Assembly: GCA_963678705.1 (NCBI GenBank)
Contig: OY783204.1
Span: 24,066,759-24,130,758 of the forward strand
Length of the DNA: 64,000 nucleotides
Source of the DNA: Panorpa germanica
Lineage: Eukaryota > Arthropoda > Insecta > Mecoptera > Panorpidae
Reading direction: 5' to 3'
Positions 2,114 to 58,252 of the stretch are shown piece by piece. Each line of letters opens with the position of its first letter. Positions within the stretch are counted from its first letter, which is position 1. The position numbers were made by a program, and so were the translations under genes. Below the pieces are notes generated by a model, which saw only the letters and a program-made list of their open reading frames with translations, searched no databases and was not told the DNA's origin.

Positions 2114-3136
2114 ATGAAGTATCTACTAAAACCATTCATCAAAATCTTAACAAGATGGAGGGACCCAAAAAATATTTTAGATGCTCTATATCCTTCATAT
2201 CTCGCTGCAAAAATATGCGGATTGGCACCCTTCCCATTTAAAAAGAAATCTGAAGAGAGTTATTGGAATAAAATCTATTTTACTATCATCTCCTTAATAT
2301 ACTTCTATTTACTAGTCAGAAACATAACATTTTTATTCATCTACAGACTTACTTACGATTTATATTCTTACGGACAACAAATACAATCCACTTTAGGAAT
2401 TGCTTTTGCAAATATTTCACTACTTTTAAATTTAATTAACAGAAAAAAATATAGATTTATATTTGAAAAACTATATGAAATTGATAACAATTTTCTTAAA
2501 ATTGGAGCGAAAATAAACTACAAAATAATTTCAAAAACGGTTTTGTTAGAAGTGGGCATTTATATCCTTTGCATATGGTTGCTTATGTTTATAAGTTATA
2601 TAATATACAACTTTATTTTACAAGAAGATGTCACGTTATTAACCTGGATGACTTACACTGTAGCAAACACTGTACTTTTTACAATTGCTTCACAATATTT
2701 TCATTGTTTATTTATTATTAAAACATATTTCCATAAAATAAATACAATCTTGAATGACTTGTTTTACGAAGAAGAGTTTCCAGTTTTTAGTGGACATGTT
2801 TTCACAGTTACGATTATGGATGGAAAACAAAATTATTCTAAGAAGACTATTAGTGAGTGTGACCAGTTAATAATCGTGGAAAATTTATGTGCAATTCATG
2901 CAGCGTTGTGCGATTTGGCGGAGACAATTAATAAGTGCTTCGCTGTTCAGTTGATGGCCCAGATAACAGATTTATTTGTTTATATTTTATTTGGGTTATT
3001 TCATATGTACCGAACAGTAATTGATAAGGATAATCCATGGAGATGGTACTTAGTGTTTTGTCATACAATCTGGTCAGTGTTTTATGTTTGCCTGATTCTA
3101 GGGGTCGTTTCTATTTCCAGTGTTACAACAAGAGAG
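2114..3136 (+). CDS. Gustatory receptor, large first coding exon (probable alternative first exon)
   Basis: Codes for 341 residues of an insect gustatory receptor (7tm_7 family), a ligand-gated cation channel subunit of taste neurons. The exon starts with ATG and ends in phase 0 at a good donor (GAG|GTACGT). It has the family's pattern: a Gly-Leu-Ala-Pro-Phe-Pro-Phe stretch near residue 35, about six hydrophobic segments, a long loop around residues 220-260, and the NKCFAVQL stretch near 277. It resembles the exon at 4601-5602 throughout. The last membrane segment with the TYxxxxxQF motif is absent. No exon for it lies between here and 4601; the next compatible exons are at 6090, 6240 and 6400. 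Splicing to those would give 414 aa. The alternative is a truncated relic, but the exon has no internal stop or frameshift. Confidence 0.8.
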
Positions 3137-3215
3137 GTACGTAGCCTTTTATAACACTTTTTTTTATTATTATATTTCCTATATTATAATCCTCATACAG
3201 TGTATAAATCTCATA

Positions 3216-3300
3216 CAGTGGTGTATTGATAAACATTAAAGTAGAAACGTACTCTCATGATAAAGTGTTAAAGTGCAACTACACCCTCGAATGTCACAAG
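3216..3300. repeat. Fragment of a dispersed element
   Basis: The stretch beginning GTGGTGTATTGATAAA, followed by AAAGTAGAAA and CTCATGATAAA, recurs with changes at about 28018-28100, 29448-29530 and 54860-54950. The 28 kb copy lies inside a Harbinger-like MITE, so this is probably a fragment of that family. Confidence 0.55.
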
Positions 3301-3929
3301 GAGTCGCTTCCCAGTGTGAGAGAGGTTTACGATCTCTTTTATAAATTGATTATAATCACACATTTTAATAAATACATAATTCCTAAAATCGAATATGATA
3401 ATAGATAACATGTAAAAATTATCACCACAAATTTAATTTTCTATTCTAATTTATTATTCATAACTCGTAATTAATAAATGATTTGACATCTGAAAACTGT
3501 AATAAAAGAAAAATTTAAATAAAATAATTTTATAAAAGCGTAGATGTTAAATAAATTGATATAATATTATTTATTGTCAATTGTGAAAAGTTGGTGTCAC
3601 TTAAGCAATCCCAGTAAACGCGTTTTGTAAAATAATCTATGTAGCAGATACGTAATGGCTATGGTCAAACCATAAAGCTGCGTTTGTGAGAATTATATAA
3701 ACTATTAATTGTACAAATCGACCAAAAGTAAAGAAACATTTTATTCTGAAGCAATATACCGAGTATATTTGATGAGGCACTTGTCTCACGACCTGATGAG
3801 GCGCTAGTGGGGAAGTAACGTTACTATCTCACCAGGCCTTACCATGCAAATACAATCTATGAGCCTTATAAACGAACATTTATAGAAAATAAAACATTAA
3901 TCCTCCAATTATATTAAGATAGTTAGGTT

Positions 3930-3976
3930 GCTATTTATCGTCTTTACATAGCTTTAAAAATATATAGTTTAGTATA
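3930..3976 (+). pseudogene. Decayed fragment of a gustatory receptor first exon
   Basis: About 47 bases here align with few mismatches to the exon start at about 4649-4696. Both read GCTATTTATC, one base, TCTTTACATAGCTT, then AAAAAT-type sequence and GTTTAG. It is not open in the receptor frame and the similarity stops on both sides. I read it as the remains of a third tandem copy of the first exon. A stray duplication of a short segment is the alternative. Confidence 0.5.
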
Positions 3977-4012
3977 GTCAGAACATTTACTATTTTCAAA
4001 CTATGTAGACGC

Positions 4013-4262
4013 ATCCCAGTAAACATTTGGTGAAGTGTCCCTTTTAGTGAAGTTTCTATCACTATTTCACTTCAATTATAGTTCGCATCGACTTTATCTT
4101 CATTTGTATTCCGACAGGTGGAGTGGATCTGTAGCCGATAAAACAGACATTTCATATGAACGATTGTGAGAAACTGAACTATAAATGAACTCTTTCATGA
4201 CAAAAAAAATCATACGCATCTCCAATATGATGTCAAAGTGACTCCAAAATGTTTACTGGGAT
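4013..4262. repeat. Small MITE with ATCCCAGTAAACATTT ends
   Basis: The left end ATCCCAGTAAACATTTGG mirrors the right end CCAAAATGTTTACTGGGAT. Related single ends occur at about 3607 (ATCCCAGTAAACG) and near 52240-52270 (AAAGTGACTCCAAAATGTT). It is a nonautonomous DNA element lying between the two receptor first exons. Confidence 0.7.
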
Positions 4263-4600
4263 ATTATCAAATATTTTCGGGAGTGGTCTTCCACCAACGT
4301 TGCAAGATGCATAAAATGTTAAAAGTGCATTAATATCATCAAAGATTCCCGTTCTGATAAAACAAAAATTATATTCTCAATAATTATATCTCGAATACAA
4401 AATGATAAAGTGCTAATTTTTGTAATTTGTTTAAAAAACATTCTTCACTATCCTAATTTTTTATAAAATTCTATCGAGAGATTTTTTGTGTATAATAGAA
4501 AATAGTTGGGCAGACAGAAAGTTTTTGGATACTTCAATTCAGGATTTATTAGTAAATGTTATTCTTAGGTTATAAACCAATATTTTAAAACATCCTAAAA

Positions 4601-6465
4601 ATGGAAACTATCCTAACAAAATGGAAGAATCCACAAAATATCTTGGACGCTATTTATCCTCTTTACATAGCTTCAAAAATTTATGGTTTAGCACCATTTC
4701 CATTTAAAAGAAAATTCAAAGAATCCCCTTGGAATAAAATCTATTTCATCTTAATTTATCTATTCAGCAGCTTCCTTTTAATAAGAAACATAGCATTTCT
4801 TTTTATGCACAATTTGCTTTTTGATTTATATTCATATGGGGAACAATTACAACGATCTTATGGCATATCTTTAGCAAATATCTTTTTAATTTATAACGTA
4901 ACAAACAGGCACAAATACAGATCGATATTACAAAAGTTACTAGACGTTGATGACACTTTTATTGAAATTGGTAAAACAATAAACTATAAAAAAATATCAA
5001 GATTAATTTTGTTGCATTTGCTTTTTTATTTATGCGTTTCAACTTTGCTCATGTTCTCCAGTTATATAATCTATTGCGTTGTATTAAATATAGAAATAAC
5101 ATTTCTAACTTGGATGTCTTACAGTACGGCTAATACAATTCTATTTATTGTTGGTACACAATATTATTATCTCTTGTTTATAATTAAAATATATTTTGAA
5201 ATGATAAAGATTACTTTAAATGAAATGTACAATGAAATGTATGCTAAAGCAATATACAATCACGATTTTACCGGCACCAATATGAATATAAGACGAAATC
5301 ACTTCAAGAAGATTTTCAGCGTGTCAGAACAACGAAACATTATAAAAAAATTGTGTTTTATCCATGATACATTGTGCGAAATTGCTGACACAGTCAACAA
5401 GTGTTTTGCGATTCAATTGTTGTCGAAAATAACAGTTTTCTTCTTGTTTATTTTATTCGGGATGTATCATATTTATCGGACAATTATTACCAACAATAAA
5501 CCATGGATGTGGTATTTGGGCATTTCCCATATTTCATGGTCAATTTTTTACTTTGGTCTGATTTTAAGAGTTGTTATTATTTCCAGTATGACGACTAAGG
5601 AGGTATGTGTGATGATATTTGTATTTATATAACATTTTTGCAATTAGATATTACTTTCTTCAATATTTATTCTACCAATTACATTGCATTAAGCGAAACC
5701 TAAAACTAAAAAGGTCAATTTGAAGATACTTCTTAAGAAGATGTTAAAACGCAAAAAGGTAGATTTATTTTTCAAAAAACAGTAAAACAGGTTACAACAC
5801 GTTTTACTTAAGATAACATTAAATAACATTAGTAATGTTACGTAACTTTTGGTATGTAAGATAAACCTTAAATACATGGAACTGAGTTTAACGTGTATTA
5901 TTATTTAAAAAAAAATTATGCACGGATATTGAAATGAAACTTCTATTACGTAAATAAATGCATGTGACATATATAACTTTGCTATGCTATGCTATGACAC
6001 ATAACTTTGGCAATCTTTTTTATAATCTAATTTACTAATAAGAGAGTTGTATATTTGCGCTAACTCAAGATATTTTTCAATTTGTCTAGGGATCATCTAG
6101 TGCATACATTATACACAGGCTAATCAACAAGTCGTGGGACCCACTACTGATAAAAAAGGTAAATATTTTTATCAGACAATTTTTATAAAAACTACAAAAT
6201 TAATATATACCAAATCTTTCTTCTACTAATTCTTTTTAGCTGGAATCTTTCTCGCTGCAGCTAAACCATCGTAAAGCTATCTTTTCTTGTGGTCTATTTC
6301 CTTTTGATTGGACGCTAATTTATTCGGTAATTCTGTATGATCAGGCATTTAACCAGTAGATTGATACAGTTAGAATAAAACATAGTTCTTTTTCTACAGA
6401 TGATTGGAGCTGGAACAACGTATTTGGTGATTTTAATTCAATTTGATATGAATACTGATACCTGA
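4601..6465 (+). CDS. Gustatory receptor, four exons, 407 aa
   Basis: Insect taste receptor (7tm_7), complete when joined as 4601-5602, 6090-6158, 6240-6326 and 6400-6465. The frame is open across all junctions and all introns are GT-AG in phase 0. Exon 1 carries about six membrane segments. Exon 2 gives a 23-residue loop ending in KK. Exon 3 holds the [10 protein letters not shown] stretch. Exon 4 holds the family hallmark TYLVILIQF in the last membrane segment, then a short tail and TGA. The length is usual for the family. AATAAA follows at 6495. Exons 2-4 may be shared with the first exon at 2114-3136. The overall type resembles Gr28-like, possibly bitter or orphan, receptors; the ligand cannot be read from sequence. 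Confidence 0.88.
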
Positions 6466-6978: not shown

Positions 6979-9900
6979 TCATCTCAGAATAAATTTAATC
7001 TTCACTGGATCTCTTGGCCTTAACAAAAGATCAGCGTGAAACACCATGTCTTCAGGTTTAGTGACCGCCTCAAGTTTATAATTCCGCAAAATTTGTGAAA
7101 TAATTGACTTCATCTCCAACATAGCAAATTTTTGTCCTAAAATAAAAATCAACAGAAAATTAATTATTTTCATAGTACTTTGAAGATTGCAATTTTTTAC
7201 ATGCCTATACAATTCCTGGGTCCAGCACTGAAAGGAATATACGCAAAAGGATGTCGATTAGCACAATTTTCCGGGAGAAATCTATCCGGGTCATATTTTT
7301 CTGGATCGGGATAAAGCGTTGGATTTCGATGGATATCAAAAATATGCACATGCACAATTTGTCCAGCAGGAATCGTATAATTTGCTGAAAAGAAATTAAT
7401 ATCAGAATTAATATGGTCGAAAAAGTATAAATATATATAATAAAGATTACCTAGCTTCAAAGGTTGAGTCAAAAATCGAGAAATAAATGGAACACTAGGA
7501 TAAAGACGAAGGGATTCTTTAAGGCACTGCTCCAAGTAACGCATTTGATTTAGATCTTGAATATTGGCTGACCGATCAGATGTTTCAAAGATATCAATGA
7601 GTTCCTTATAAACTTTATCCTGAAATAACAATTTAATAAATTAAAAATTGTTAAGTGAGAAGAAATTAAATGTGGTAATCTTACCTGAACATCAGGATTA
7701 TTTGCTAAACATAATAATCCGAAAACCATTCCCATTGAAGAGGTATCATGACCCTGGAAATAATATTCTTTAATTCTGCTTTTCACATAGTAAATAATGT
7801 TTCTAGTGGCTTCTATTTTCACACTGTTTTTGGTCTTGTAAAACCTCCCCTACCTCAAACATGAATGTGTCAACTTCTTCTCTGATCCCGTTCTCATCAA
7901 TCTGTCCATTGGCTTGAGCAGACAAGAGTAGATCCAACATGGCCAGTCGTTTGTTACTCTTCGTCACTACTTCAACTTCATCACTGGAAACCTGCTTTAC
8001 TTTGACATAATTCCGTTTCCTGTCCGAGATGACCGTTTTAGTGAACGAATGAAGCTCTTCTAAAACTGATTCCTGTTCACGACCCTTTGATGTCATATTG
8101 AAGAGAATGTTTGGGAGCAACCAAGGACGGACAATTCGATAAATCAATAAATGACCCATTCTGTTAATTATTATTAAATCAGAATATAGACAGAAGTTTT
8201 CTTTAAAGTTATTTCATAAAACTCACCGATGGATCGCATTTTTATATACGTCAGCACCAGCAATAGTGCTCAAGTTTGTTCCCATTGCAGTTTCTAAGAA
8301 GGAAATGATTGTTTTATTAAAAGAATTATCCATTGTTTTAAAAAATATATTGTTTAACATACCACATAAAGAATTTAGCGCAAAGTCCGTAATTATAGGA
8401 GTGATAATGGTTTCTTTGTTGTTACATTCCAACTGTAAATTCTCGACAAGCTGTTTCCCGTGTTCTTCAATGACGGTCACAAACTGCTGCAGGATGTTGA
8501 AGTGAAAAGCAGGGGTTAAAATTTTTCGCCGATTTTGCCATTTATTACCTAGAAATTATTTATTTATTCGTTAAGTTTGAGCTGCTTTTGGAGTTGTGAA
8601 CCATGTCTTAATTTTTATAAAACTGTTCAATATACAATTTGGATAAGGTAGACTATCGGGACCTCAATTCTCTATTGTCTCATTATTTTTTAACAAAGTT
8701 TCAGTATTATAAAAGATATAAAATTTGAGAATTTGCAAAACAGTAGATAGAGACCTAAATAAAAAACGTGTAAATAATTTACACGTTTACTTAGCTATAG
8801 TAACAATATGGATCTCATGATGTTACTCTTTATTGAAATTGTTTTATATTTGTGTAATAAATTAGGTATTTGTAGTTAGAATTGGATGTTTATTGTATAT
8901 ATCGATATGCAAATATAATTAATACTTATTAGATACTAGCTGAAGAATTTGTCAACTCATTGTATTTAAAAGGAAGGAGTTCCAGGAAGGCATTCAAATA
9001 TAAGAATATGTGTTTACCAAATGAAGTCAGTAGACCATCCTTCAACCACGGATGAAGATAATCGTAGAGGACACTCTTCTGAATGTGTTTCATACTGGAC
9101 AGCAATGCCTAGAAATTTATCCAATCAATACTTTTCTTTTTCTAATTAAAATAATTAATAAATAAGACGTAAATAATTACCTCAATATCATCTGGTTCGA
9201 AAATACAAACGACAGATCTAGTGAGGACTCGTAAACGGTAAATCTTAGGGTACTTCCTGGCCATCTTACGGAGAAAAATGAATAATTCATCTAATGCAAT
9301 AATAAAATAAATTAACTCATGCAAAACTACTTGCTAAAACTACTAAAACACACGCTAATTCAAATTAAGAATATTTAATATGTACTTTACATAACAATTT
9401 TTTTTAATTTCTTAGTGCCGATTTCGCAATAGTCTTGTAATTGTGGTTTATTATAAACCTTGGTTGATACTTTTGTATCTCAAGTCTTATTTTTGTTCGA
9501 GTGGAATATTACATTTACATTTTATGCTAGTTAAATGTGGTCGGTCTCTGACAAAATTAGAATTTAAACAACTAATTTTTTAGGTTAATGTCATAACTAT
9601 ATTTTAACTGCCTATCAAAAAACCGGCTCTTAGTAATATTACTATGCATTTTGGGTTAATTGTACAATAAACACAATTGATTAAATACATTTAAGTCGTT
9701 TAAGAAAAAGATTCCGGTGCGAGTATAATTCCCATCCTCATTTTTGTACATCCGTTTTAGAAAGGGTTACCAGATTTTAATTTAAGTCTCGCGGCAAATA
9801 TGAAAAAAAGGTCCTACGCGAAATTAATTCACGCTAAACTCAAAACTTACATTTATATAATATTTTACTTAAGTGAAAGTGTTAGGTAAACCTTAAAACA

Positions 9901-17401: not shown

Positions 17402-20282
17402 ATGGTGCTTGTTAAATACTTACGTAAAACCATTAAAGATCGTTGGAATCCCCAGTCTATTATGGAACTGATGACGCCCTTTTATTGGCTATCTAAGTTA
17501 TTTGGGCAAGAGCCATATCCTATGACAAGGAAATTCGAAAACACTGTTTGGAATATCTTGTACAACACTTTGTTGATTGGAATTTGTATTTCTCTTCTAA
17601 TTGTTAACATCGTGTCCGTTGGCAGCATCAAAATCAACGATGATTTATACTTCATCGCCGATCGAATGCAAACCGTTATGGGAATTTCCATGGTAACATT
17701 TAACTTGTTATTTAATTTAACTAACAGAAACAAATCATGGTGTATAGCAGAATCGGCTCTAAAGATAGAAGCCAAATTTATACAAGCTGGCATTAAACTT
17801 GATTATTGCATGTTGGCGGAACATTTATGTTACATGTTTGTAACTTATACGGGGCTAGGTATTTTCATGATAATACATGAATTATTTACATTGGTAATTA
17901 TCCTAAATGTTAATCCAGCTGTTATAAAATTCTGCACTGATAACTTGTCCAATATAATACTGTTCATAACAATTATGAAAGTCATACACCTCCTGTACGT
18001 TATCAAGTACTGGTTTGAGGAAGTCAACAAGAAATTCAACGAAATATCTATGGAAAATGAAAACCAGCCTAATAATTTAAGACAGTCCACCATTTCTCTT
18101 ATTAACGAAGACTTCCAACGAAAAAGTTTGAAGAAGGGAAACTCATCGAACGATCAATTGACTCGCCTGGAAGAACTGATCAAGATCCATGATGCGATCA
18201 CTGAAGTGGCTATTGCCATCAATAGCTGCTATGCATTGCAGATATTGGCTGCTTTCGCTAGATCATTCATTTACATCGTTTTCCAGTTATTTCTTATATA
18301 CCGTGCAGTAAACGCTGAACAAGATTTTACAGTTTGGTACACTATATACGGCCATATTATCGTATTTCTCTTTTATTTGGGGACAAATTTCGTTGCCTTT
18401 CGAATTGTGACACTTACCACCGCACAGGTTTGTTATTCCAACACATTATTAATAATACGATAGCCTTAGATAAATATATATGTATATACATTATCATAAA
18501 TCATCATCAGTTTACTTATTATTATATTAATTAATTGTGTGCCTTTCGGCTTTACAATCTACAATATTATATTTTTTAATGCATTTCATATAAATTCAAA
18601 GTTAAAACTAAACTTAAACTATTCTAGACTATTACTACTTCGAATAGTACTTTCTGTTTCTTCTTTTCTTGATCCTCTCTCTTCCTGTCCTCTACTCCTC
18701 CTTTATTCACACCGTTTCCTGCTTCTCCATCCTTATTGCCTGTATCTTCATCTATCACCCCTTCCCTTCCTTGTCTCCTCTCGACAAACCCTCTATTATC
18801 TTTTCACTATCCTTCCTGCCTTCCCTTTTCGTTTTCACTTCTCCACTTATGTCTATTACAGACAAAAACGCTCTATCTTTACTATTTCCTCTTGACTCTC
18901 TTACTTTACTATTTCTTCTTGACTCTCTTCCTTTACTATTTTATTATTGTCTCTATCTCCGTCATCCACCTCTTGTCCTTATCGCCTTTCCGCAAATCCT
19001 CTATTTTTCTGGACTGAAGTTTAACTGTTTTCTCGCTACTTCTTTCTTTCTCCTGCTTCCCTTCACTGCCTCTTTTAGTACTTCCTCTCTCTTCATGTTC
19101 CTTATGCAACCCAGCTACGAGCTTATTTATTGTCCTGTTTTTTCTTTTCTTTTTTCTATTTCCGCCATCCACCTCTTTCCTTCACACCTCTTTCCTTCAC
19201 TTTCATTATCAGTTTATTTAGTAACAGAAATTATCTCCTTCCAGATGCTTGCAGATGACTTTATTCATGATCTTACCCAAAGAACATCGAACAGATTGAT
19301 AATAAAAAAGGTACGTATAATATGTCAGCTCATGATTGTGCCACCATTTCAGGAAGCCACAACCGTGTGCGAATCGTATCACTCTGAATGGTGATTGGAA
19401 TTCTATTAGACATTAGTGTGACATTACATGAAGCTTTGGACAGCATGTCTGAACCGGCCGGAACGCTCCGTACCCCTTCTGATTGCCTTCCTAATACTTT
19501 CCAAACGAGGTTTGCCGAGGTGCAAGTCGTGGTACTACCACTTCTACTCAGATTTCAATCTAACCACACGTCCAAACGATCGTACACGTGTAGAACACGA
19601 GCAATAACGACTTATATGCATATGCCTTTACATGCGGACAGAGATCTCCACATCAAAAATAAGTTGCAGCCATCTTGAATATACCGAATCTTCGTAAATG
19701 TTCGGCTAACACGAAACTAATATTCTTGAAATCGTATAAATAAATAACACCCCTACTGTCTAACCACCATCTGATACCAGATTACTTAGATACGACAAAT
19801 TGTTTGTAGGGCTAGTACATCAACTTAATTCATCTTCTTACAATAAAGTGTACTTCAATAATATTTCATCTCCTTTAATTTGAGTGACTTAAAATTAAAG
19901 CAGACTTTACTACTGCAAATCGTATGGACACTTCTCCAAATACTGGCACCAAATTTAGTCCAATGATCATACAATTTTTGCATTTATTGAATTTCATTTT
20001 CAGCTTGAGTCCTTTTCTCTTCAGTTATCTCATCGTGATGTGATATTTACTTGTGGATTCTTTCCCTTTGATTGGACTGCATTTTCTTCGGTAAATACTG
20101 TTTGCAATTAATTTACTATGTGAATTAACGTTAATATTTTATGTAGTTCTATTTTCAATTTACAGATGATAGGTGCTAGTACAAGCTATTTGTTCATTTT
20201 GATACAATTTGACATGGTCGATGCTTCTAGAGGTTGTGGTGTTGGAACCAACACATCGATGGTTATAAAAAGTGAAAAATAA
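17402..20282 (+). CDS. Gustatory receptor, four exons, 431 aa
   Basis: Complete insect taste receptor (7tm_7). Exons 17402-18427, 19245-19310, 20004-20090 and 20166-20282; phase-0 GT-AG introns; total 1296 nt ending in TAA. Exon 1 (342 aa) gives about six membrane segments. Exon 3 has GFFPFDWTAFSS. Exon 4 has the signature TSYLFILIQF (a Ser variant of TYxxxxxQF) and a longer polar tail of about 20 residues than the receptor at 4601. The exon pattern is identical to that gene, so the receptors in this window are paralogues. Intron 1 is dominated by a pyrimidine-rich tract and intron 2 by a repeat (copy 2 of the element at 556). AATAAA lies near 20399. Ligand unknown. Confidence 0.9.
18655..19240 (+). 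repeat. Pyrimidine-rich tract in receptor intron 1
   Basis: Almost 600 bases dominated by C and T on the + strand (TTCCTGCTTCTCC-like runs). Such composition leaves several long open frames, one of 241 codons, but these are rich in Leu, Ser, Phe and Pro with no family features, so I do not count them as genes. Similar tracts occur at 26020-26420, 39948-40135 and 46670-46815. Confidence 0.65.
19370..19811. repeat. Inverted-repeat element, AAATTGTTTGTAGG end, copy 2
   Basis: The interior 19373-19541 nearly duplicates 593-760. The right end AAATTGTTTGTAGG is the same as in copy 1, and the left inverted repeat is lost. It lies in intron 2 of the receptor at 17402-20282, where extra sequence separates the shared block from the right end. 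Confidence 0.65.
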
Positions 20283-22306: not shown

Positions 22307-22855
22307 ATAGGCTTGTGTCCTCATTTTTTAGTGGTCGACTTTTCAATTGTTGATTGAAATTGATGTTATTAAATGTGTATTAGCGTGTTTATTTTATTAA
22401 ATATCTAAATGTTGACGGAGATATAGCAATTAAAATTTGAATTGTAATTTTAGCGCTAGAAATAGTCGGCCATTTGTATGATAATCAAATCAAGTCAAAG
22501 AATAATAAGTTTTTACTTTATTTAACCTTGCTAAAGCAGACATAATATTGAAATTTTATTATTCCTTGAAATAGCTGTAAATAATATTTGATATTTTGAT
22601 ATATGAATACATATAGCAGAGATTTATGAGCTGTAAAGTTGGCAGCGATTGTGATGTCACATGCATTTGGAATGTGTACAACGCTGAATCCCTTTAATAA
22701 TTAATTAAAGAGACAAAATGACTTTTTTAATTGTTAATATCTCTTAACATATAAGGAGTTATTAAAAAATAATTGAACATTTGAGGTTCTAGTAACCCAC
22801 TTTATCAATATATAGTACACTTTTATAGAAATTAAGACATAGGACACAAGCCCAT
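22307..22855 (+). mobile_element. GGGCTTGTGTCC-family MITE ending at a receptor start codon
   Basis: The left end is AATAGGCTTGTGTCC and the right end GGACACAAGCCCAT. It is of the shorter subfamily, with a deletion between the GGCCAT block and ATCAAATCAAGTC. Its last two bases (AT) form the start of the first ATG of the receptor exon at 22854, so the element replaces or abuts the receptor's 5' UTR. Confidence 0.85.
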
Positions 22856-25766
22856 GATGTCTTTCTCTTTTAAAGGTCTCTTCCAATATAAGAACTGTCT
22901 AAATATGGAACATGTGGTAGATCTTATATACAGGTGGTCTAAACTTTTCGGATTGGAACCATTTTCTTTAGAACGGACTTCTAAATTCTCATCGACAGGT
23001 CTAATGCAATACATCCTAATTTATCTAGCTTGCGTTTATTTTACAATTCGAAATGTAACCTACTTCTTTGCAAATGATCGATTCTCTGATTTATATTCTT
23101 ACGTTGCAGAACTTCAAGGAATTTTCGCGCTGCTCTTAGCTAATTTTTACTTAACGTACATTTTATTTAATAAAAAAAGATTGTGTTTAATTGTTGAAAA
23201 TGTTTTGGAAGTCGAATGTGAGTTAAGGAAACTTGGTGGGAAAATAAAATACAAAAATTTATCAAAGATAATCATAATTGAAAGAATGGTATCGACAATT
23301 ACTCTTAATTTGATTATGTTTACGACAGTAGTCATTTACAATATTATATTAGAAGTAAATACATCTCTGCAAACGTTTTTATCATATTCTGTAGGTAATT
23401 TGATATTTTCTTCAATAACTTATAAATATGTTCATTTATTATTCATAATTCGCGCCTATTTTAAAAGTATTAACGTAAAATTACACGATATGTATGAAGA
23501 AAATCATCATGTAAAACAAACAAGATTAAAAATCATCGCTATATCAGAACACAGGACCAGATGTTCTCGGAATATTAAAATTGATGATGTTTTGGTAATG
23601 GAAAAGTTGGGAGAAATTCATAGCGTCTTGTGTGAAGCTTCTGTCATGGTGAACGAGTGCTTTGCGGTTCAATTACTGGTTGGGATAGCAAGAGGTTTTT
23701 TATTTATTTTGTTAAGTATGTTTTTTGTTTATCGTACAATCAATGCGAAGAATGTTTCGTGGATGCTGTGGCTTGCTGTTGTTCATGTGTTGTGGAGCAT
23801 CTATTATCTTGCAGTGGTGATAAGCATTGTTGCAATTTCAGCTTCAATTACGAAAGAGGTATGTAAGAAAATTGCTTCTTATGTAAAATGTACCGTATTT
23901 GTAATTGGGTTGTGATCGGTTTTTTAAAACGTCGGCGTTTTGATGAAATATCCAAATATTGGCGGATATATATCTATTTAAAGTTTGAATTTTGTTTTAC
24001 TGCAGATATTGCTGTTGACAATAAGTCAAGAAGTAATTTTATTTATTTCCATTTCATATCACGACTTTTTATTGAAACATTATGGGTCATCCTAACAGCT
24101 GCTGTAGCTTTGTTGTTTAATTCTGCATCTCTTTTGCACTTCTTTTATTTAACAGTGGTGATAAAAGAAGGCAAATGGTAGTCGGGAAGAAGGTGAGAAA
24201 AGAACTACGTGAATTAGTCAATGGGCTTGTGTCCTCATTTTTTAGTGGTCGATATTTCAATTGTTGATTGAAATTGATGTTAATAAATGTGTATTGGTGT
24301 GTCTATTTTATTAAATATCAAAATATTGACGAAGATCAATTAAAAGTTTGAATTGTAGTTTTAGCGCTAGAAATGGTCAACCATATTTGTATGACGTGAA
24401 ATGCATTTTAACGTCAGTTATTTGTGAGTAGGTCAGTGCTGTGGTAATGTTCTGTAGTTGTTGGTAGTCAAATAATCAAGTCAAATCAAAGAATAATAAG
24501 TTTTTATTTCATTTAACCCTGCTAAGGCAGACATAATATTGAAATTTTATTGTTCCTTGAAATAGCTGTAAATAATATTTGATATTTTGATATATAAATA
24601 CATATAACAGAGATTTATGAGCTGTAAGGTTGGTAACCTTACACAAGGATTGTGATGTCACATGCATTTAGAATGTGTACAAAGTTGAATCCCTTTAATA
24701 ATTAAAGAGACAAAATGACTTTTTTAGTAGTTAATATCTCTTAACATATAAGGAGTTATTAAAAAATAATTGAACATTTGAGGTTCTAGTAACCCACTTT
24801 ATCAATATATAGTACACTTTTATAGAAATTAAGACATAGGACACAAGCCCATTATGTTTTATAAATCTTTACCACTTCAATTATTAAATGATTAAAAATA
24901 ACTCAAAACTAATTTGATTCAAAACCAAATTCTAGATTTTATACCAGAGACTCAAAACCGATAATATTCCCCTTTCCGGTTACATTCGGTTATTACGCAA
25001 CCGTTTTCGAAACGATTCTAGTCCTTGTTTTGTTTGTATATCATACACATGGATTACAACATATTTACATAAATGTAAATATAGTAATTTACATAATGAA
25101 CCGCATATTTCTTTTAAACGAATTAATTTTACAAATACCTCTACAGGTAGTAAATTGTCTTGCAGTGCTGTTTCACCTTGGTAACTTGCTACAAGCTAAT
25201 TTTAAGGTTCATTTTGTACCTCTCACCTGGAAATTGTAACGCTGTGTGCAACGGCAAGCTAGCTTTTTATCTAAACGTATTTGTTATTTAGATACACATA
25301 ATAAAATTTATCTTTTACAGTGCTTGTCAAGTTCACTGTCAATCCAGAAACTAATGACACTACCATGGAGCTATTTGCTGAGAAAAAAGGTCACTACATT
25401 ATTTATAATGCGTATTATAAATAATATACATCTTTAAATTTATCTTATATGTATATTTTTCAATTCCAGTTGACGTTCTTTTCGATGCAGTTATCTCACC
25501 AGATAGTTGTGTTTTCTTGTGGGCTTTTTCCTTTTGATTGGACGTTAATTTACTCTGTAATTATTCCATAACTATTAACATACTCATACGCGTATATCAC
25601 ATTTATTTAGCGCGTTACATTTATCTATTTTTAATCCTTGCAGATGATTGGAGCTGGCGCAACATACCTTGTCATATTGATACAATTTGACATGAGCAAT
25701 ATGGCGTTGACTTGTTCAGATGGTACAAATACATCGATTCCTAAATTTGCATATGCGTACATTTAG
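22854..25766 (+). CDS. Gustatory receptor, four exons, 427 aa
   Basis: Complete insect taste receptor (7tm_7). Exons 22854-23858, 25321-25389, 25470-25556 and 25644-25766; phase-0 introns; ends in TAG. Exon 1 has the GLEPF stretch near residue 42 and the NECFAVQL stretch near 265. Exon 3 has [13 protein letters not shown]. Exon 4 has TYLVILIQF plus a 24-residue tail. Two adjacent ATGs (22854 and 22857) open the frame. The first shares two bases with the end of a MITE, so 22857 is an equally good start. The donor of exon 2 (AAG|GTCACT) is weak. Intron 1 holds another copy of the same MITE. AATAAA at 26000. Ligand unknown. Confidence 0.88.
24221..24852 (+). mobile_element. GGGCTTGTGTCC-family MITE, full length, in receptor intron 1
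   Basis: Intact inverted ends ATGGGCTTGTGTCC and GGACACAAGCCCAT, about 630 bases. It contains the TAAGGTTGGTAACCTTA palindrome of the longer subfamily. Bases next to the ends are A on the left and T on the right, as in most copies; no longer target duplication is evident. Confidence 0.88.
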
Positions 25767-30303: not shown

Positions 30304-37551
<7,248 letters not shown>

Positions 37552-39588: not shown

Positions 39589-41869
39589 ATGTCTTATTTT
39601 ATTTTAATAGGAATTTTAAGTGCATTGTGTTTCTTGCATTATTTATTAAAACATATTGCGAATATCAAAGCTGTGGAAGACATTCCAGGTCCTGCAGGAT
39701 TTCCTGTTATTGGAAATCTTCCAGAGTTTCTGCTATCATCCGGTAAGTTTAAAATGAGATGATTAATTAAATAATATTAGTAATAAATCAGCGATATTGA
39801 TGCGTTTGAAAATAAATTGGTTTTAGATAAATTATTCAATAAGATTCGTCAACTAGCTAAAGATCATCGAGAAATTTATCGGTTTTGGATTTTGAAAGAC
39901 TCTGTAATAAATTTACTTCAACCGGATGATATCGAGGTTAGTTGATTTTCTTCTCCTCTGTTCTTGCTCTCCTTCAGCAATTCCTTTATCTTCTTTTTAC
40001 TATCTATCTTAAATTCAATTTTTCTTCTCATATGTTCCAGCTTCTTCTCTCGCACTTACTCCTTCTTTACTCTTCTAACTTACCACTTTGCTTTTCTCTC
40101 TTCGTTCCATATCCATATTTCTTCTTCCTGTACCAAACCCACTCATCAGCAACACTTAAAACTTATTGGAACTTTTTCAAAACGAAAGAAATCTTATTCT
40201 TAACACAGGTTCTACTTTCAAGTCGGAGAAATATAACAAAAAGTTCTTTGTACGACTTCCTGCGTCCTTGGTTACGAGATGGATTACTCACAAGCACAAG
40301 TAAGATGTAGAATAAAAATTATAAATCAATTCTCTCTTACCTATAACATTAAAGTTAATAATAATGATATCTAAATTTCCAGGCGATAAATGGCAAAAAC
40401 GAAGAAAGATCCTGACTCCATCATTCCACTTTTCTATTTTAAAAGATTTCGTTGTTATTTTTGGAGAACAGAGTAATAATCTAGTCGAAAAATTACGTAT
40501 CGAGTGCGAAAAAGATGAAACTAATATTGGACCATTTGTTACGGAATTTACCCTTAACTCGATATGTGGTAACTATAATTGCCTAAATCTGAAACAGTTA
40601 ACTTCCTAAAATTCATTCAAAATTTTCTATTATAGAAACAGCGATGGGGACATCCCTGGATCCCACGAAAATATCGGCGCAATCTTATAAGAAATCCATT
40701 TATCGGTATGTATTCTTTAATTGTTGGTACATCATATTCATTCAAGATCAGTAAGTAAATACTATCTATAGATGCAATGGTTTACAGTATAGGAGAACTA
40801 ATAGTTCATCGGTTCGTAAGATTCTGGTTGCATCCTCCATTTTTATTCAAACTATCACCAAGTGGACGCGAGCAAAAAGATACTCTAAAGACTCTTCACT
40901 CCTTTACACAAAACGTCATCAACGAGAGGAAAATGAACTACGTCAAAGTTGCCTCGGTGTCTAATGATGAAGTTGAAGTCATTGGGAAGAGTCAGCAGCG
41001 ATTGGCAATGCTGGATTTGCTGTTATCCGCCCACGCCAATAATGATATCAGTGACTTAGGTATCAGGGAAGAAGTGGACACCTTCATGTTTGAAGGTCAT
41101 GATACAACATCAATGGCGATTACGTTCTCTTTAATGTGTTTAGCTAACAATCCTGAAATACAGGTAAAGAAAGCTACAGAAATTTTCATAAAAACATGAT
41201 TGATAATTCTGCTTCTTTTAAAGGAAAGGGCTTATGAGGAAATACATGAAATATTCGGCACATCAAACAGAACTGCGACAATTCACGAATTGCAGCAGAT
41301 GAGATATTTGGAGCAATGTTTGAAGGAAACTCTCCGTTTATATCCCAGTGTTCCATTTATTTCACGAATTATTACAGAGTCTTACAAACTTCGTAAGTAT
41401 CACTTTAATCTCCTGGAACCTCGCAAACAATTTAAGGAATTCCATACTTTTCTAGGTAATTGCACAGTTCCACCTGGCACAAATGTGAATGTTCATATAT
41501 TTGACCTTCATCGAGATCCAAAACTGTATCCAGACCCAGAGAAGTTTGATCCGGAAAGATTTACTGCAGACAACTGTGCTAAAAGACACCCGTTTGCGTA
41601 TATCCCATTCAGCGCCGGACCTAGAAATTGCATCGGTAATTTAGCAATTTAAAATTACTGCAACTTTTTTCTATTAAAGTAATTTTAATTTTGTTGTCTT
41701 AGGTCAAAAATTTGCGCTGCTGGAAGAGAAATCAGTTGTATCAACAATTTTACGCAATTATCGGTTGGAAGCAATCACTCGACCTGAGGACATCAAATTC
41801 TTTGCGGACTTAGTGTTAAGAACAAGTACGCCGGTCAAAATGAAAATACGACCACGAATTATTAAGTAG
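39589..41869 (+). CDS. Cytochrome P450, CYP4 clan, nine exons, 500 aa
   Basis: Microsomal monooxygenase and the most compact gene of the array. Exons 39589-39742, 39827-39936, 40209-40299, 40383-40568, 40636-40705, 40788-41163, 41224-41392, 41456-41635, 41703-41869; 1503 nt, open to TAG. The exon at 40788-41163 equals exons 6 and 7 of the other array members joined without an intron, exactly at GAA|GGT before GHDTT. Motifs: hinge [23 protein letters not shown] (Gly307), K helix ETLR at 364-367, [10 protein letters not shown] with Cys444. AATAAA at 41962. Its closest relative is the gene at 44141-47629; about 60 residues around the I helix are identical between them. Substrate unknown. Confidence 0.93.
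39948..40135 (+). repeat. Pyrimidine-rich tract in P450 intron 2
   Basis: C+T-rich sequence on the + strand (TTCTTCTCCTC, GCTCTCC, TTCCAGCTTCTTCTC), resembling the tracts at 18655, 26020 and 46670. Noncoding. Confidence 0.5.
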
Positions 41870-44140: not shown

Positions 44141-47100
44141 ATGATATTGATTTTAGTCAGTATTTTAAGTGCGTTATGTTTTCTTCATTATTTTTTGAAA
44201 CATATAGCTAATGTTAAAGCTGTGGAGGACATTCCAGGTCCTGCAGAACGTCCAATAATTGGAAATATTCCAGATATTCTGTTATCTCCTGGTAAGTTTC
44301 AATTCTACTCCTAACTAATATAAGTCGCTATGATGTTATTTATAAAAATCAAATTTTTTAAGAAAAATTGTTCTATGCGGGACGAAAATTTGCAAAAGAA
44401 AATAATGATATTTATCGCTTATGGGTTCTGCAGGACTCTATAATAAATTTACTTCAGCCGGATGATATCGAGGTTAGTTGAAAATTAATTTAATATATGG
44501 CTAATAAAATAATAAAACAACCTGCAAAACACCTTGCATACCTTAAATTTATGTAATATTTTACTTAAACGAAAAGTAGCAATATTTAATTTAAAAAGGT
44601 CTTATTTTATTATTTTACTGTTATTTTAAAAGACTTAATTCTTACAACTTAGGTCACAAAAATTTTGTTATATTAGATAAACAAATCCTTTGTTATATTA
44701 GATAAAATTTAAATACACATAACTGAAATTAGTGGGATTGCACAAAAATGGGTCTATTTTATCCTGCATTTATGTAATATTCCCACTAAATACAAAATTC
44801 CTACAAATATAAAACATAAATGTAACCTTACATTCGTCAAATATTTTACATAGAGGCAATATAATATTTTTATTATTTTATTTTAATGGTTTTGCCATTG
44901 GACATTACATTCTTCTGCCTTACATCAATAAATTACATATTATTGTGCTTAATTACATTTTATTTGTGATCCTTATTCTATAATATACATTTTCACTCTT
45001 TCCAAAAAAAAAAAACTTAAAGGCAATATAATATATTTAATCTAATAAATTAATAAATTATTTTATAGCCTTTATTTTATTTTAATTATTATTTTAAGAC
45101 TTATAAATAGTCTTTCAAGAAGAACTACTTTCGATTTCTTAATCCTTTAAAAGTTTTATGAGTATGCTAACGCGAAAATGTGAAAATTTATTTTTCAAAG
45201 AGCAGTAAGTTGATCGCAGTGCTTACGTAACATGCAGTTCTTCAAATGTTAGAAAATATTAAGTACACTTAAACACAAAATACTGTGTATAGCGGATTTC
45301 TTATTTGTTGATAAGAGCAACATATTTCTTTCTTTTCTAAACTTTTAATAACCTTATAAAACACTGATATAAAATAAAGAAGACACACACACAACCAAAG
45401 AAATGAATTCGATTTTCGAAAACACGCGCGTATTCGAATGCAACATTGTGTCAAAATTTCAAGTCAATCGACCGACTATTTTTCGAGTTTTACGAGCACA
45501 AACCTACGCAGGCAGAATTTGTAATTTATAATCCAAAGAAGAATAGTATTAATAATATTTTAAATTCGTACAATACGATTTTAACCAAATAATGTTGATA
45601 TAATTATATTCTGAATACAGGTTCTACTTTCAAGTAGAAAAAACATCACAAAAAGTAAAATCTACGACTTCCTGCATCCCTGGTTGCGAGATGGTTTGCT
45701 CACAAGCACAGGTAATTCAACAAGTAATATCTCAGAACTTGCACAGTTACTCTACTAATATGATATCCAAATTTCCAGACGATAAATGGCAAAAACGAAG
45801 GAAGATCTTAACTCCATCATTCCACTTTTCTATTTTAAAAGAATTCGTTGTTATTTTTGGAGAACAGAGCAATAATCTAGTGAAAAAATTGCGTGTTGAA
45901 TGCGGGAAAGATGAAACCAATATAGGACCATTTGTTACCGAATTTGCTTTGAACTCCATATGCGGTAACTTAGTATAAACATAAATTCCTATTTACATTC
46001 TATTACATAGTGAAACTTTTAATTTAGAAACTGCTATGGGAACTTCTTTGGATTCCACCAAAACATCAACGCAATCCTATAAGAAATCAATTTATCGGTA
46101 TGAATTGTTTACCTAATTGTTAATAACATATTCTTTCCTTACAAAAAGACAAATCAATATTTGCAATAAACTTTGCTTATAGTATAGGAGAGCTGTTAGT
46201 ACATCGTCTAGTTAGGGCTTGGTTACATCCTCCATTTTTATTCAATCTATCACCAACTGGACGTGAGCAAAAGATAACTCTAAATACTCTCCACTCCTTT
46301 ACACAAAACGTCATCAACGAGAGAAAAATGAACTACGTTAAAGTTGCCTCGGTATCTAATGATGAAGTTGAAGTCATTGGGAAGAGCCAGCAGCGATTGG
46401 CAATGCTGGATTTGCTGTTATCCGCCCATGCCAATAATGATATCAGTGACTTAGGTATCAGGGAAGAAGTGGACACCTTCATGTTCGAGGGTCATGATAC
46501 AACATCAATGGCGATTATGTTTTCTTTGTTGTGTTTAGCTAATAATCCTGAAATACAGGTAATATATATAAATACATTGTCCTGTATTTATTTAAATGCT
46601 TGGTCAGGCTTTACATTCTTCCATATAATCATTCATGACTTCTGGAATATACTTGGAAACTAATTAGATCTCTTCACTTTCTCTATTCCATTCTAAACTC
46701 TATGTTTCTCCTCTCTCTTCTTCCTTCCTCCTTGTGTCTCCTTCATTTAGCTTCTTCCTTCTCTTGCTCCTTTCATCAGCTCGTCTATCTTCTTCTCCCA
46801 GCCAAACTGAACATTCTCCAAATCTGCACTGCCATCCGTATCATTATTCATTTCTGGTTTCTTCTCAGCAGTATGTATTTAAATATATATATATATGTCA
46901 GAAAAAAATCCAGAACATTTAATAAATAAACTGTAAATAATTCCGTTTCTGTTAAAGGAAAGAGTTTATCAAGAAATCTACGAAATTTTCGGCACATCAA
47001 ATAAAATAGCAACAATTCAGGAGTTACAGCAGATGCGCTACTTGGAGCAATGTTTGAAGGAAACTCTGCGATTGTATCCCAGTGTTCCATTTATTTCACG

Positions 47101-49655: not shown

Positions 49656-58252
<8,597 letters not shown>

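Follow-up and report, generated by a model that had tools for sequence, protein, structure and literature searches.

Two large first exons before one set of terminal exons at a gustatory receptor locus: a probable case of alternative first exons

How many receptors does a gustatory receptor (Gr) locus encode, if it has two large first exons and only one set of small terminal exons? The locus lies in a 64-kb stretch of DNA (C1:24066759-24130758 in a 464-Mb assembly), called the window below, that was scanned in six frames; unprefixed positions are those of the window. The earlier note on this DNA had proposed an alternative-first-exon locus, with two intact paralogous first exons of 341 and 334 codons ending in phase-0 donors, a single downstream set of exons 2-4 containing the segment TYLVILIQF, and spliced products of 414 and 407 amino acids (aa). 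We found the frames and donors as described and obtained the same lengths, the exon borders agree with the junction of 3136 with 6090 given in the note, and the six-frame profile scan of the 64 kb agrees with the single ending. Overall, we consider it likely that this is one Gr locus with two alternative large first exons giving two receptors, a reading favoured because of the exon anatomy, the absence of a second ending, the conservation of both first exons together with the donor, and the recurrence of the layout at other loci. The parts of the locus are as follows.

2114-3136, plus strand: first exon 1a, 341 codons, own ATG, phase-0 donor GAG/gtacgt
4601-5602, plus strand: first exon 1b, 334 codons, own ATG, phase-0 donor GAG/gtatgt
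6090-6158, plus strand: shared exon 2, 23 codons, in phase 0 at both ends, profile score 46.7 bits
6240-6326, plus strand: shared exon 3, 29 codons, begins LESFSLQL, profile score 70.9 bits
6400-6465, plus strand: shared exon 4, 21 codons plus stop, containing TYLVILIQF as the last membrane segment, 43.0 bits
3137-6089, plus strand: proposed intron of the 1a transcript, 2953 nucleotides (nt), with all of exon 1b inside

Each first exon lies inside a stop-to-stop frame of 347 aa, with an in-frame stop upstream of its start ATG, and 1a bears no marks of a pseudogene, its frame and donor both being intact. Exon 1a covers positions 1-296 of 370 of the Pfam 7tm_7 profile (PF08395, cut-off 26.6 bits) with E 1.6e-28 and 100.5 bits, and exon 1b covers positions 2-298 with E 6.5e-23 and 82.1 bits. 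Addition of exons 2-4 lifts these scores to 179.9 and 161.5 bits, respectively (about 79 bits each), and both spliced sequences reach position 369, thus completing the domain. The resulting proteins have four exons each, and the C-terminal motif TYhhhhhQF of insect Grs, as defined in PMC3732137, is present as TYLVILIQF in exon 4. Moreover, a profile of nine spliced paralogues, including 1a and 1b spliced as proposed here, matches the solved Grs 8vc1 (5.8e-25) and Gr43a (8jm9; 6.5e-21), the alignment with 8vc1 extending through to the sequence end; a search of solved structures with a single sequence gave no real match.

The window has fewer endings than first exons. There are four large first exons (starting at 2114, 4601, 17402 and 22854) versus three exon-3/exon-4 sets (6240/6400, 20004/20166 and 25470/25644). 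The profiles of exons 2, 3 and 4 were made from 8, 10 and 10 genome loci, respectively, with the present locus among them; two other Gr genes of the window were outside the profile sets, and their exons 3/4 were recovered at 63.9/36.2 and 50.7/33.1 bits.

17402-20282: Gr gene of the same clade, complete, four exons, own ending; exon 2 placed at 19245-19310
22854-25766: Gr gene of the same clade, complete, four exons, own ending; exon 2 placed at 25321-25389

Exon 2 of these two genes was not among the 25 exon-2 profile matches listed, and was picked by eye among four and two splice-site candidates, respectively. Outside the three Gr sets, the best exon-2, exon-3 and exon-4 matches reach 7.3, 6.7 and 7.9 bits (among the 25 matches listed per profile). 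The possibility that 1a has its own ending hidden in 3137-4600 was considered and rejected, as none was found there by profiles, by looser thresholds or by enumeration of splice sites, the latter yielding no AG..GT phase-0 exon of 63-75 nt.

Exons 1a and 1b are 52% identical, and their coding parts align over the full length. The pairwise ratio of nonsynonymous to synonymous divergence (dN/dS) is 0.18 by NG86, 0.20 by YN00 and 0.34 by LWL85, with pairwise dS of 1.9, 1.8 and 0.9, respectively. The relative rates of the two exons are equal (35 vs 28 unique changes with the Gr4 outgroup, 25 vs 27 with the Gr3 outgroup). The 5' flanks and the intron starts of 1a and 1b have no similarity above that of shuffled sequences, and no shared promoter sequence was found for the two exons. 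In a simple neutral simulation, with the indel rate assumed to be 0.12 per substitution, a frame of the length of 1a survives without stop or shift in 19% of the runs when divergence is 1%, and in 4% when it is 2%. The intact frame, together with the low dN/dS, argues that 1a has been a coding exon through most of its history and has not been free of constraint for long.

The same layout is observed elsewhere in the genome. Exon 1b matches 44 genome places, of which the best 24 were classified; four of the other 20 fall in an array on C8 near 9.09 Mb, considered below. An own ending was called from exon-3 matches (50 candidates scored) together with the exon profiles, absence among the exon-3 matches alone being uninformative, and the four first exons left without an ending were checked for one locally. 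Twenty of the 24 have their own ending, and four have none (1a, C12:3600451, C12:4775047 and C18:12780192). The evidence for an own ending is thinner in three of the 20, namely C12:3337598 (one exon-4 match of 11.2 bits), C12:4784571 (matches of 11-23 bits) and C7:10678184 (one exon-3 match 4.4 kb away). C17:9926932 was considered as a further orphan and rejected, its own exons 3 and 4 being located farther downstream.

All four orphans of the best 24 have an open frame with a donor at the homologous place, and each is immediately followed, in the same orientation, by a gene that carries the next ending. Such placement has a chance of 0.0014 or 0.0005, according to the distance rule chosen, in a simple random model that ignores shared descent and in which the eligible places were counted by hand. 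Apart from 1a/1b, they form the following three pair loci (L006, L007, L061, L022, L013, L024 and L012).

C12:3600427-3606216: two open first exons and one exon 2-4 set, same layout as the 1a/1b locus
C12:4775038-4778672: two open first exons and one exon 2-4 set, same layout as the 1a/1b locus
C18:12780006-12785922: two open first exons and one exon 2-4 set, same layout as the 1a/1b locus

Identity between the partners at these three loci is 24-30%. A tree made from 27 first exons has 1a/1b and the C12:4775047 pair as its only sister partners, C12:3600451 being placed with a different C12 gene and C18:12780192 with C2 genes. Since the partners at the latter two loci are not sisters, sharing there did not arise by duplication of one partner's first exon; more probably, an ending was lost between two adjacent genes. 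The divergence of partners was rejected as a proof of old shared loci, as it dates the exons and not the loss of the ending.

Two arrays on C8 were examined as well, having been selected because they are clustered, so that they are not an unbiased sample. The array near 9.09 Mb has 12 first exons and nine endings; nine genes in a row have their own endings (one of them, at 9085562, with a short 277-aa frame), and this array is therefore a good check that the method detects endings.

C8:9091360-9098874, minus strand: single ending, the first of the nine, preceded by four first exons, of which the second is interrupted (L044, L065)
C8:19952681-19960982, minus strand: three first exons before one ending (L066, L050, L067, L056)

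In the array near 19.95 Mb there are candidate donors at the corresponding place, listed by a rough rule and unscored. In total, 39 first exons were classified, 30 with an ending and nine without, and between each of the nine and the next ending on its strand there is nothing but further first exons. At six loci so far, the first exons (two to four per locus) outnumber the endings.

Several other Gr loci of the genome have features of their own. At C10:16126188-16134590 (minus strand, L068) a tandem array of four Gr copies, whose N-terminal parts consist of two exons, has one recognisable ending; perhaps these are shared two-exon cassettes, or perhaps the endings have diverged, and the array was left out of the count because of the latter possibility. 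A Gr gene on the reverse strand of L016 (positions 2853 and 3015; C15 ~14429228 and ~14429066) has two tandem copies of exon 4 with 34.1 and 34.3 bits, possibly alternative last exons, a mirror image of the 1a/1b layout. The translated string VSSFFSGRFFN occurs downstream of four different Gr first exons (L005 ~2917, L014 ~2613, L017 ~2494 and L022 ~2494) and is probably a dispersed repeat.

How would two receptors be made from the present locus? Start codon and donor are separate for the two first exons, and so, presumably, is the promoter. Transcription starting before 2114 would give an RNA in which 3136 is joined to 6090 and exon 1b is lost with the intron, whereas in an RNA started before 4601 the joint would be between 5602 and 6090. 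Seven acceptor candidates were joined in phase 0 to the 1a donor, and 6090 alone continues as a Gr, the other six joints running into a stop after 0-19 codons. The choice of receptor would thus most simply be the choice of promoter, and, as there is no readable joint from 1a to the tested sites in or before 1b, the two products would be mutually exclusive. The receptors would differ over the first 341 or 334 residues, which by analogy with Gr39a and the solved Grs should comprise membrane segments 1-6 and the ligand pocket, and would have the last 73 residues in common. The seventh membrane segment of Grs lines the pore. The common part would include this pore-lining last segment, and the known Gr structures suggest that the ligand-binding parts are different.

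Splice sites were scored with small in-genome matrices derived from this family (35 training donors, ranging from 3.8 to 12.7, and 25 training acceptors, the lowest 4.7); the training sites were scored with themselves included, and the matrix is biased against left-out sites. The donors of 1a and 1b score 10.1 and 11.8, respectively, the former being within the range of the training donors. The 1a intron contains an insertion resembling a miniature inverted-repeat transposable element (MITE), present in the genome in very many copies (at least 40 other matches at 91-96% identity, and 2957 first-look candidates).

4013-4262, in the 1a intron: MITE-like insertion bounded by perfect terminal inverted repeats of 16 bp; acceptor-like site at 4048

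A number of observations weigh against two alternative first exons. The exon-2 acceptor at 6090 has a score of 4.16, lower than that of any of the 25 training acceptors, and is outscored by six acceptor-like sites in 3150-6090, three of them at the leader or coding part of exon 1b (the best, 9.8, at 5587) and two within the MITE (one at 9.0). The acceptors of shared exons 3 and 4 are also low (6.1 and 7.5), and 6090 is presumably functional because exon 1b must use it as well; still, part of the 1a transcripts may be mis-spliced. An early end of the 1a transcript is also possible, given seven AATAAA/ATTAAA hexamers in 3137-4600, approximately the number in shuffled sequence (6.4). The string YIIILIQ at 3177-3200, resembling exon 4 with 7.2, 7.8 or 9.0 bits depending on the scan, would be a weak hint of a decayed 1a ending; as a real exon 4 it was rejected and taken as a chance match, the best other exon-4 match in the window being 7.9 bits and the string overlapping a short tandem repeat. 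A second weak hint is an A/T-rich match between 3137-4012 and the flank 3' of the shared exons, with a score of 40 that none of 100 shuffles attained (mean 28.4), in one of four non-coding comparisons made. The pairwise dN/dS averages all history and is compatible with a very recent loss, and at two of the three other pair loci the partners are not sisters, so that the sharing there may be of any age. Finally, the exon anatomy, the single ending, the joint conservation and the recurrence are observed in the sequence, while promoters, transcripts and function are what we infer from it.

The most probable of the rival explanations is that 1a was recently orphaned, its own exons 2-4 having been deleted or lost in assembly, and is becoming a pseudogene. 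Tandem Gr genes with own endings are common, as in the row of nine on C8, and therefore 1a probably once had an ending or arose from a gene that had one; the relic-like strings in 3137-4600, weak as they are, would fit such a loss, whose date cannot be read from the pairwise dN/dS or from how far partners have diverged. On the other hand, the intact frame limits neutral decay to approximately 1-2% divergence in the simulation. The eight other orphans (seven open, one interrupted) are all upstream of a same-strand ending; if endings had been lost recently and at random, some orphans without a downstream ending would be expected too, and none was seen among the 39. Hence recent orphaning, which we consider improbable here, is possible for the 1a locus alone, but is a poor general account given the recurrence of orphans upstream of endings.

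Slightly less probable still is that 1a encodes a short unspliced receptor, translation reading through the donor for five codons to a stop at 3154. The 346-aa product would be similar to the Type 3 bitter Grs of Helicoverpa armigera, described in PMC4817054 as short and intronless, with 200-350 aa, and its length falls within this range. This rival is to be taken seriously, as Type 3 genes are reported there as expressed, Xu et al. giving complete frames in transcripts for seven genes, with reverse-transcription polymerase chain reaction on 20 and 3' rapid amplification of cDNA ends on two. The poly(A)-like hexamers downstream of 1a could serve such a transcript, although they occur at shuffled frequency. 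Yet the donor of 1a is intact and strong (10.1), and a donor is found at the homologous place in 1a and the three other orphans of the best 24, while an unspliced gene would have no reason to retain it; the product would also be devoid of the end of the 7tm_7 domain and of its conserved last segment. Run-on or mixed splicing, in which 1a takes in 1b or its leader via 4543 or 4569 and the upstream exon is regulatory or non-productive, is very unlikely, since, though these sites score 6.1 each versus 4.2 for exon 2, the joints stop after 10 and 9 codons, respectively, leaving no reason for conservation of the 1a protein.

Two receptors from alternative first exons thus remain the favoured explanation of the locus, and the recurrence raises the possibility, advanced here tentatively and as somewhat less than evenly balanced, that lepidopteran Grs use alternative first exons regularly and not as an exception (the host being probably a moth or butterfly, to judge from the gene structure). 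If so, some Gr models of moths described as "partial", as pseudogenes or as short intronless genes would be first exons spliced to the ending of a neighbour, and both the receptor counts in Lepidoptera and the set of distinct pores would need revising. Were the layout common in this order, orphan first exons would be real receptors and not debris, and the receptor counts tied to diet breadth would have to be altered. For partial genes in the middle of scaffolds, the Spodoptera littoralis Gr paper (PMC9339325) gives misassembly, missed exons or pseudogenes as explanations, and a shared ending would be a further possible reason. Moreover, receptors with different ligand-binding parts and a common pore would be natural domain swaps, in which differences in tuning must come from the first exon.

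The window contains other genes as well. Cytochrome P450 exons are located at 7197-7640 (minus strand) and at 34213-34548, 40759-41199 and 46127-46663 (plus strand), with Pfam p450 matched in four of the ten frames scanned; they belong to several genes interleaved with the Gr genes. A weak zf-RVT match at 50533-50862 (24.4 bits, under the cut-off of 27.5) is perhaps a retroelement remnant.

What is known of comparable loci? That Drosophila Gr39a, Gr23a and Gr28b are alternatively spliced, as stated in the earlier note, is borne out by PMC2204066 for Gr39a and by PMC2204066 and PMC6307266 for the other two. According to PMC2204066, every large first exon of Gr39a carries a start codon and a donor of its own and is spliced to three small exons that code for the seventh membrane segment; the first acceptor is found only at the shared block, and the alternatives are under purifying selection. 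The present locus is similar in its layout, more than one large first exon, complete with start codon and donor, preceding a single set of small exons, and in the purifying selection on the alternatives (pairwise dN/dS of 0.18-0.34 for 1a/1b, equal rates). It differs in the number of first exons, two here, whereas Gr39a has four in D. melanogaster and a larger number in some species, and in that expression is known for Gr39a, while the present locus is a matter of sequence. Orthology of the exons is not claimed, and the likeness may be convergent.

Outside Drosophila, the beetle genes TcasGr214, AglaGr99 and DponGr38a-d are described in PMC6720082 as having unique N-terminal exons joined to shared C-terminal exons, the alternative N-terminal exons of TcasGr214 being also mentioned in PMC6307266, together with a planthopper Gr with alternative first exons. 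In these accounts, the beetle loci have one or two shared exons in Dendroctonus and up to 30 variants in TcasGr214, compared to three shared exons and two variants here. In Lepidoptera, the Type 1 bitter Grs (like BmorGR58) have about 400 aa and 3-4 exons (PMC4817054), and the present locus resembles them in its products of 414 and 407 aa, its four exons and the TYhhhhhQF end, but in the text available from that source Type 1 genes are described one by one, and exon sharing is not mentioned. Sharing of Gr first exons is likewise unmentioned in the available parts of the lepidopteran receptor and genome papers PMC4817054, PMC11102633, PMC9500883, PMC7687262, PMC9339325, PMC10210156 and PMC5613006, and no report of a recurrent shared-ending pattern in Lepidoptera was found in the open-access literature searched. 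Alternative first exons in Grs are thus already known from flies, beetles and a planthopper, and it is their recurrence within one lepidopteran-like genome that would be the part new to specialists.

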